Shown one piece after another: positions 10,471-36,509 of a DNA stretch of 37,426 nt. The stretch lies in NCBI GenBank assembly GCA_009782085.1, contig WQUN01000260.1, forward strand, positions 1-37,426. The letters run 5' to 3'. This stretch comes from Bacillota bacterium (GTDB lineage Bacteria > Bacillota > Clostridia > Lachnospirales > WQUN01). Both the position numbers and the translations under genes were made by a program. The notes below the pieces were generated by a model. That model was not told the origin of the DNA and searched no databases. It saw only the letters and a program-made list of their open reading frames with translations. Numbering within the stretch: position 1 is the first letter of the stretch; the number at the start of each line of letters is the position of its first letter.

Positions 10471-10540
10471 TATACCGGAATGCGAAAACATCAGCTTCCT
10501 TTGTCGCGTCGCCGGCAAATGTTTTCAGCGTCCGGAATAG
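10471..10540. repeat. TATACCGG palindromic element, short form
   Basis: tataccggaatgcgaaaacatcagcttcctttgtcgcgtcgccggcaaatgttttcagcgtccggaata. Confidence 0.8.
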
Positions 10541-10656
10541 CCAAGAGGCTGAATATATTGTATCAGGAACCGGCGTTTTCGGCAACCGACAAACGGAAGC
10601 CGGGCGCGGCGATTTTTCGCGGGAAAAAGATATTCCGGTTGTGCAGGGGCGGTTAT

Positions 10657-10759
10657 TAATCGGAGTGCGAAAACATTAGCCTCCTCTGTCGCCGATTCGC
10701 CGCTGAAACGTTCGGCGAATCGGCTCGCCGTCGGCAAATGTTTTCTGCATCCGGTATAA
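10657..10759. repeat. TATACCGG palindromic element, long form
   Basis: cggagtgcgaaaacattagcctcctctgtcgccgattcgccgctgaaacgttcggcgaatcggctcgccgtcggcaaatgttttctgcatccggtataa. Confidence 0.9.
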
Positions 10760-10816
10760 CCGCCCGCAAACGCGCAGAGAAGGTTAATAACCTCCCCGCA
10801 GGCAACCTCTGTATGT

Positions 10817-10884
10817 CATCCTGAGCGAAGCGAAGGATCTTAAAAAGCCAAAACATAAGATTCTTCGCTCCGCTCAGAATGACA
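10817..10884. repeat. GTCATCCTGAGCGAAGCG hairpin repeat
   Basis: gtcatcctgagcgaagcgaaggatcttaaa...aagattcttcgctccgctcagaatgac. Confidence 0.85.
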
Positions 10885-11090
10885 AAAAGAGTATAGAGTA
10901 TAGAGGTTACTATATGTAGGGCGGGGGCTCTGCTCCCGCCGTTTTCGACATTCCCAAATTATTCCGCGTCTCCGGGAAGTTTATGACCGCCGTTCAGGCC
11001 ATTGTTTTCGCTCCCGGCTTCACCCGCGCCCGGCCCTTCGCCGTTGCCCTCGTCCTGCTCTTTGCCTTCGTCCCGGCCCGTGTCCTGTCC

Positions 11091-21640: not shown

Positions 21641-21906
21641 GACCTCCTCGGGAATTAGTTTCCGGCGTCTTTGCGGCCATTTTTCCGGATTGCCGCGTCA
21701 GCGCCTCCTATAGTCGTTTCGTTTGAAATTGAGCTTCAAACTTCGCGCGAAACGCCCCTGAACATCGGTCGTCTCGCGCTCGTTTTCAGCTCATTTCAAA
21801 TCGAAACGACTTTAGCAGACCTCCTGCGAGTATGCGTCGTCGGCGCTTCCTTGCACTCCAAAAAAATGTCGCGCAAATCCGCCGAAAACTAATTCCCGAG
21901 GAGGTC
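21641..21906. repeat. Foldback element with about 45-bp terminal inverted repeats (GACCTCCTCGGGAATTAGTTT)
   Basis: Left gacctcctcgggaattagtttccggcgtctttgcggccatttttcc; right end reverse complement gacctcctcgggaattagttttcggcggatttgcgcgacatttttt; inner agtcgtttcgtttgaaattgagc / gctcatttcaaatcgaaacgact. Confidence 0.85.
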
Positions 21907-21927: not shown

Positions 21928-21993
21928 GTAGGGCGGGGGCTTGCCCCCGCCGCGCCATACGGGAGCTTTCGGCGGGGGCAAGCCCCCGCCCTT
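21928..21993. repeat. GTAGGGCGGGGGC(T/A)TGCCCCCGCC palindromes
   Basis: gtagggcgggggcttgcccccgccgcg...cggcgggggcaagcccccgccc. Confidence 0.8.
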
Positions 21994-22051
21994 CTGCGGA
22001 AAACATTTGCCGGCGACGTGACAAAGGAGGCTAATGTTTTCGCACTCATAC
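21994..22051. repeat. TATACCGG-family element, short form, reverse orientation
   Basis: gcggaaaacatttgccggcgacgtgacaaaggaggctaatgttttcgcactcatac. Confidence 0.75.
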
Positions 22052-22150
22052 GAATCTCGATTAAAATCTTCACAGTCTGTCGCCGAGAACGCCGCTGAAG
22101 CGTTCGGCGTTTCGGCTCCGCCTGTGAAGTTTTAATCTGAGATTCGTATC
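22049..22150. repeat. Palindromic element with ATACGAATCTC arms and a core shared with the TATACCGG family
   Basis: atacgaatctcgattaaaatcttcacag...tgtcgccgagaacgccgctgaagcgttcggcgtttcggctc...ctgtgaagttttaatctgagattcgtat. Confidence 0.85.
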
Positions 22151-22192
22151 AGGTATAGCAAACGCTGATGCGGATGAGCCGATTTTTTTATT

Positions 22193-22309
22193 AGACTTCT
22201 TCGGTAGTTGATTTTTCGTTGTCACCCTGAGCAAAGCGAAGGGTCTTAGAATCAAGATTCATCGCTTCGCTCAGAATGACAAGCGCCAGTTCCCGCAGAA
22301 ATCTATTTA
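22193..22309. repeat. AGACTTCTTCGG-armed element enclosing a GTCA(C/T)CCTGAGCGAAGCG hairpin
   Basis: agacttcttcggtagttgatttttcgttgtcaccctgagcaaagcgaagggtctta...cgcttcgctcagaatgacaagc. Confidence 0.65.
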
Positions 22310-24961: not shown

Positions 24962-25006
24962 TCCGAGTTCGAGTTTCCACGAAAACCCGAATGCCGCAGT
25001 CCGTTG

Positions 25007-25080
25007 TCATCTTGAGCGAAGCGAAAGATCTTTCACCTCCGTGTCAAAAGCAAGATTCTTCGGCTTCGCCTCAGAATGAC
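25007..25080. repeat. GTCATCTTGAGCGAAGCG hairpin repeat
   Basis: gtcatcttgagcgaagcgaaagatcttt...aagattcttcggcttcgcctcagaatgac. Confidence 0.85.
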
Positions 25081-25130: not shown

Positions 25131-25234
25131 TTATACCGGAGTGCGAAAACATTAGCCTCCTCTGTCGCCGATTCGCCGCTGAAACGTTCGGCGAATCGGC
25201 TCGTCGTTGGCAAATGTTTTCTGCATCCGGTATA
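25131..25234. repeat. TATACCGG palindromic element, long form
   Basis: ttataccggagtgcgaaaacattagcctcctctgtcgccgattcgccgctgaaacgttcggcgaatcggctcgtcgttggcaaatgttttctgcatccggtata. Confidence 0.93.
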
Positions 25235-31042: not shown

Positions 31043-31232
31043 GTCTGTCCTCCGTGGTAAAAGATGCACCAATAATTACTATGAAAATAAACGGCAAATA
31101 GACCGTAAAATGCGAGTAGGCCGTAAATCGCGTTAAGCAAAATTCTTCATGCGTTTCTCGTGCCGAACCGGAATATCCCCTTGCCGTTACAAGTGAAAAA
31201 TGCTAAAATTTAATAAATAAAAAATTAACAAT

Positions 31233-31344
31233 AGACTTCTTCGGAAATTGTCGTTTGTCATTCTGAGCGAAGCGAAGAATCTTGATTTCAAGACCCTTCG
31301 CTGCGCTCAGCTGACAGCGAAAAATCAATTTCCGAAGAAGTCTG
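31233..31344. repeat. AGACTTCTTCGG-armed element enclosing a GTCATTCTGAGCGAAGCG hairpin
   Basis: agacttcttcggaaattg...caatttccgaagaagtct with inner gtcattctgagcgaagcgaagaatctt...acccttcgctgcgctcagctgac. Confidence 0.88.
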
Positions 31345-36403: not shown

Positions 36404-36509
36404 TTATACCGGATGCAGAAAACATTTGCCGATGACGAGCCGATTCGACGAACGCTTCAGCGGCGAATCGGCGACAGAGGAGGCTAATGTTTTCGCACTC
36501 CGGTATAAT
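36404..36509. repeat. TATACCGG palindromic element, long form, reverse orientation
   Basis: ttataccggatgcagaaaacatttgccgatgacgagccgattcgacgaacgcttcagcggcgaatcggcgacagaggaggctaatgttttcgcactccggtataa. Confidence 0.93.

Follow-up and report, generated by a model that had tools for sequence, protein, structure and literature searches.

A covarying hairpin shared by palindromic, probably mobile elements with differing arms in one order of Clostridia

Introduction

What does it mean when the two sides of a stem change together in a palindrome that is repeated through a bacterial genome? Covariation is usually read as a strong sign that an RNA is at work. The question arises in a 37,426-nucleotide contig of a Bacillota bacterium (WQUN01000260.1; this whole stretch is called the window here), where a sequence-only reading had noticed, near position 22049, a palindrome that shares its center with palindromes bearing other arms, while its stem differs from theirs by changes that keep the pairing. 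That reading proposed that selection acts on the structure, either as an RNA hairpin or as a DNA hairpin recognized by a transposase. The genome to which the window belongs (G000) is a 2.49-Mb assembly in 265 contigs and is 89% complete; the RecG proteins closest to its own are from uncultured Clostridia and share about 50% identity with it.

Results

Position, ends, and nesting of the element

The palindrome has the arms and the core that had been described, with coordinates that are off by roughly 1 base. Assigned to family A, the element itself has the outer sequence TACGAATC...GATTCGTA and occupies 22049-22148.

22049..22148, + strand: putative palindromic MITE of family A, 100 bp, terminal inverted repeats TACGAATCTCG.../...GAGATTCGTA (sequence, genome copies, DNA fold)
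22046..22048, no strand: left target-site duplication TCA (sequence; 3-bp TNA flanks are usual in family A)
22149..22151, no strand: right target-site duplication TCA (sequence; flank pattern of family A copies)
22079..22119, + strand: shared hairpin module with conserved internal-loop flanks (match to covariance model R1)
22095..22104, + strand: apical loop CTGAAGCGTT of this family A copy (superfamily consensus NNGAARCGTT)
21994..22045, - strand: left portion of the short-form, core-less B palindrome that family A entered (inverted repeat I4, 90% complementary to 10478-10529)
22152..22157, - strand: GGTATA, what remains on the right of the short-form B element that was interrupted (sequence; compare CTCCGGTATA near 36498-36507)

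Folded as a single strand of DNA, the element reaches -34.5 kcal/mol (z = -9.65 against shuffles). The core-less palindrome that it splits is of the TATACCGG type (family B) and has an uninterrupted counterpart at 10471-10539, so that the nesting provides, in effect, an empty-site comparison for 22046-22151; the palindrome entered by family A is older than the family A insertion. The window also holds the following members.

21709..21814, + strand: family D member with TATAGTCGTTTCG arms, hairpin 21742-21782, same architecture (covariance model, E = 0.0056)
10471..10539, + strand: hairpin-less short form of family B (inverted repeat, sequence)
10656..10758, + strand: family B long form, hairpin 10688-10727 (sequence, covariance model)
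25132..25234, + strand: family B long form, hairpin 25164-25203 (sequence, covariance model)
36405..36507, - strand: family B long form, hairpin 36436-36475 (sequence, covariance model)

The intergenic region from 21.64 to 22.31 kb consists of stacked palindromic repeats: an outer inverted repeat (21641-21675 / 21872-21906) encloses the family D element in a nest at 21641-21906, and a GC-rich palindrome pair (21928-21991) lies between this nest and that of A in B. A separate dispersed inverted repeat of type GTCATYCTGAGCGAAGCGAAGGATCTT, found at 10811-10886, 22217-22282, 25002-25080, and 31230-31310, often adjoins the MITEs.

Copy number and distribution

Family A occupies 40 places in G000. 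The core CGCCGNNGAARCGTTCGNCG, allowing at most 1 mismatch, occurs 113 times in this genome, 0 times in the backward control, and 0 to 4 times per genome in 145 relatives, and three arm families carry it in G000, namely, A, B (TATACCGG), and C (GGAACTGTCCAG). A pattern search of the relatives that used sequence only returned homologues with different but paired stems (L138, L142, L139, and L134). Covariance model R1, which has 40 positions and was seeded with B variants, C, L134, and L139 but with no family A sequence, recovered the core of family A with 49.5 bits (E = 1.8e-11). The model matched G000 127 times at E <= 0.01 and 141 times at E <= 0.5, some antisense matches included, and it matched the relatives G028, G015, G029, and G025 64, 62, 48, and 15 times, respectively. 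Further copies came from an order-level model search, in 15 other genomes spanning three families of one order, while a sample drawn evenly from the class Clostridia yielded members in the window's own genome alone.

The elements are short (100 bp), have paired arms or terminal inverted repeats, and are dispersed in high copy number, which are the marks of a MITE. Four candidates in G000 (L085, L075, L036 on the minus strand, and L115) were rejected as coding-like sequence or a terminator-like hairpin, and eight matches to the core pattern in viral contigs, with coding-like flanks and no paired arms, look like chance.

A common architecture within different arms

Twenty-two representative elements (alignment A5) align end to end and have a common architecture: variable paired arms, with TA-type ends in most elements; a conserved asymmetric internal loop (5' YTGTC / 3' TCG); and a variable, covarying stem of about 12 bp capped by the 10-nt apical loop NNGAARCGTT. 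RNAalifold gave 25 pairs for these elements, 22 of them with double-sided changes, and 90% of cells in the alignment are paired; shuffling lowers this to 64%, and sliding the alignment gives no more than 51%. The A and B cores align with a score of 27 points, far above 5000 shuffled palindromes (-2.3 +/- 3.5, maximum 12), a kind of comparison that the sequence-only reading had called for, and the family D core likewise aligns with both better than shuffled palindromes do (p <= 0.0006). Most families belong to one superfamily, and the centers of family A and of the TATACCGG element are homologous. The match of family C to the superfamily is limited to the apical part, and this family is the clearest case of the core within unrelated arms.

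That a structural module is shared around a constant core while the arms differ holds up: it is present in families with 3-bp duplications and in families with TA ends, and an identical 41-nt hairpin stands within B-type arms in G036 (L185) and within E-type arms in G025 (L196). Two unpaired parts, the GAARCGTT of the apical loop and the TGTC/TCG of the internal loop, persist across genera and families in which the neighboring stems and arms are replaced, and several unpaired loop positions are more conserved across families than stem positions.

Three observations concern variant forms. In family C of G000, the short form (L371 1501-1555) and the long form (L101) differ by a single hairpin indel of about 43 nt, with no long direct repeats. 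A tandem array of a 77-bp unit in G028 (L130 1440-1720) alternates between a GCAAAAAG hairpin and a long stem that ends in the loop TAGRAGCGTT, an occurrence of this loop outside the MITE architecture. Relatives in G148 (L335 and L337 to L339) have an extra hairpin, GTTTCGGCGAAGGTTCTCCGCCGAAAC, immediately 3' of the core, where it has been inserted.

Covariation beyond phylogeny

Covariation was tested with our own R-scape-like implementation, using a G statistic with average product correction and a null in which the parsimony number of changes is placed on the tree. Among 68 distinct hairpins, all four pairs with E < 0.05 lie in the helix, as do the next three ranks, and among the 22 full elements all five pairs below this threshold are predicted helix pairs; most of the distant members were retrieved by a structure-aware model, which favors paired matches, and the first distant ones (L134, L138, L139, and L142) by the sequence-only pattern. 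Covariation beyond phylogeny is real, and the compensatory changes first noticed between two palindromes thus stand against a phylogenetic null. The swap of TT/AA for AA/TT, on which that observation had been built, is present but is merely one of several, others being GATT/AATC, GACA/TGTC, GATA/TATC, CAAAA/TTTTG, and ATGAAA/TTTCAT, among others. A C.T mismatch occupies the third pair from the loop in most B copies (e.g., L044, L045, and L073) and in all C copies; it is also seen in elements of G148 (L288 and L291), although other members of the group have C-G, G-C, or T-A at this pair.

Arm homogenization and whole-stem switches

The usual B arms are imperfect complements, with AGTGCG on the left and CTGCAT on the right. 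Twenty-eight B copies have one version on each side, while six have the left version on both sides and one has the right version on both; no loop-inverted B copy was found among the copies compared. In the stem, the two common states are ATT/AAT and ACA/TGT, and none of the copies examined is half switched (ACA/AAT or ATT/TGT). Template switching has been described as giving rise to compensatory changes of several bases at once (PMC8794818), and both the B arms homogenized into perfect palindromes and the whole-stem switches are what intrastrand template switching gives. Compensatory change is therefore not by itself proof of selection here.

A purely mutational account, in which all families stem from one ancestral palindromic MITE and template switching plus gene conversion keep the palindromes perfect with no selection on structure, is rather unlikely. 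It draws on that published mechanism, on homogenization in both directions, on stem switches without intermediates, and on the lack of a G.U bias (below), but by itself it does not account for the conservation of the unpaired GAARCGTT and TGTC/TCG across genera and families despite replaced stems and arms, or for repeat arrays in which the same loop caps unrelated stems (L130 and L343).

Strand tests and drift

Maintenance of one strand as RNA should show itself in a tolerance of G.U over A.C. Within families, however, there are 64 distinct G.U events and 81 distinct A.C events (p = 0.18), and between families the helices show 13 and 12 (18:13 when cells are counted). A preliminary ratio of 38:15 for full elements was discarded, because counting the conserved internal loop, which all families have in common, had inflated it. 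Relative to flanking genes, which were predicted with a simple caller based on codon usage in the window, 17 copies are co-directional and 15 are opposed, a small sample with many copies at contig ends, and 0 of the 113 copies lie inside a predicted gene. Rfam returned nothing relevant at gathering or relaxed thresholds; no matching family was found in Rfam or in the literature searched, and a literature search with the loop sequence returned unrelated text alone.

Within family A, the apical loop differs from the consensus at 6.1% of sites and the stem at 2.7%; in the D copies of G029 the values are 11.2% and 5.6%. The order is reversed in family B, which contains subfamilies, with more change in the stem than in the apical loop. 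Greater drift in the loop than in the stem of A and D copies makes the inserted copies look neutral, and constraint appears to act on the elements that multiply.

It is improbable that the core works as a structured RNA within transcripts, for example, as the target of an RNase or other protein, with selection on the RNA keeping the pairing; such a role has been proposed for ERIC, Correia, and REP elements. Significant covariation, an intergenic location, and the cross-family conservation of unpaired loop positions would suit such an RNA, but the event counts, the random orientation, the Rfam result, and an apical loop that is no more conserved than the stem within A and D copies all speak against it. 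The RNA hairpin under selection that had been suggested at the outset thus lacks support, and the compensating changes look tied to the spread of a DNA element and not to a working RNA.

Very improbable is a mobile cassette, a hairpin able to insert at the apex of unrelated palindromes, which would account for the A, B, and C carriers and the core-less short forms: short and long forms differ exactly by the hairpin in B (10471-10539 versus 10656-10758) and in C (L371 versus L101), C has only the apical part in common, and the same loop recurs in tandem arrays (L130), but the arms align over their full length across all families except C, so that most families resemble a single lineage whose arms have diverged, the short forms could have arisen by deletion of the hairpin, and there is no standalone core among the matches listed.

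Insertion chemistry and the search for a partner

At least two insertion chemistries carry the hairpin, 3-bp duplications in families A and C and TA ends in families B, D, E, and F. Identical 3-bp TNA flanks border 25 of the 28 family A copies with two readable flanks (TTA in 12, TAA in 9, TGA in 3, and TCA in 1), and 3-bp duplications border eight of nine family C copies. TA stands on both sides of 12/13 E copies, 3/4 F copies, and 12/16 D copies of G029; it is invariant and could be the element's own.

No PF13358 (IS630) protein was found in G000, G028, G029, or G025, and neither PF01609 nor a longer element with A or C termini was found in G000, whose 89% completeness and fragmentation make absences from it weak. 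PF01797 (Y1/RAYT) stayed below the cutoff in G000 and had no match in G015, G025, G028, or G029. MITEs can outlive their autonomous partner, and since G000 is also incomplete and fragmented, a missing partner decides little. In G023, an E copy next to an IS630 gene was rejected as evidence of a partner; this E-family element (L203 1470-1573) sits inside the broken IS630-type transposase gene, which it disrupts from within.

Discussion

Our results lead us to favor, as the probable explanation, that the element at 22049-22148 is a non-autonomous palindromic MITE of an order-restricted Clostridia superfamily, a selfish DNA element whose palindromic form would result from template switching together with selection for a hairpin needed in mobilization. 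A trans-acting enzyme would mobilize the element and thereby spread it. Its long palindrome might extrude into a cruciform, or into a hairpin when single stranded, and contact points on this DNA fold may then be provided by the two conserved loops. Template switching between the arms would repair mismatches, so that paired changes arise together, and only source copies with an intact fold would multiply, the inserted copies drifting neutrally thereafter. A DNA hairpin recognized by a transposase, the second alternative of the sequence-only reading, would be part of this best explanation, and the conservation of the loops across families could in part reflect common descent.

By analogy with known systems, the elements are ordinary in kind, being palindromic MITEs of a form like that of RUP, ERIC, and Correia elements (PMC2229807). 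RUP, an IS630-type MITE of about 107 bp that is intergenic, has TA at its ends, and is present in about 100 copies (PMC2229807), resembles families B, D, E, and F in its ends and the elements here in size, location, and copy number. Its terminal inverted repeats are common to IS630-Spn1, whereas no IS630 transposase was found in the four genomes searched here; families A and C differ from it by their 3-bp duplications, and no further signature of structure or function is reported for it in the review cited (PMC2229807). ERIC and Correia (NEMIS) elements are palindromic MITEs of about 100 to 160 bp with the potential to form long hairpins, and the long and short forms of Correia differ by an internal segment, much as the forms described here do; the effect of ERIC on RNA depends on orientation (PMC2229807), whereas the elements studied here, in different hosts, show no orientation or G.U signal and have one core common to many arm families. 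REP elements (GTAG/CGTC, with RAYT transposases) are also high-copy palindromes with conserved unpaired motifs (PMC3733652), but the present elements are longer and have terminal inverted repeats and target-site duplications, and no Y1 transposase exceeded the cutoff in the five genomes searched. The structured RNAs of Rfam are similar in having conserved loops on variable, covarying stems and differ in that the elements here have no Rfam match, no G.U excess, and no strand preference. What is unusual is that one covarying hairpin extends across many arm families, an order, and two insertion chemistries.

These mobile DNA palindromes pass a covariation test with a phylogenetic null and fail the strand tests for RNA, which makes them a warning case for RNA discovery pipelines, and they offer a natural system in which template switching can be separated from selection. 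A bolder idea, which we regard as unlikely, is that the internal and apical loops on the covarying stem form a DNA-structure module read by a hairpin-specific mobilization factor independently of the terminal repeats; common machinery would then multiply MITEs of the TNA and TA types, with arms exchanged between families. If it is true that a mobilization factor reads the loops, the hairpin would be a structure-specific module common to MITEs with different insertion chemistry.
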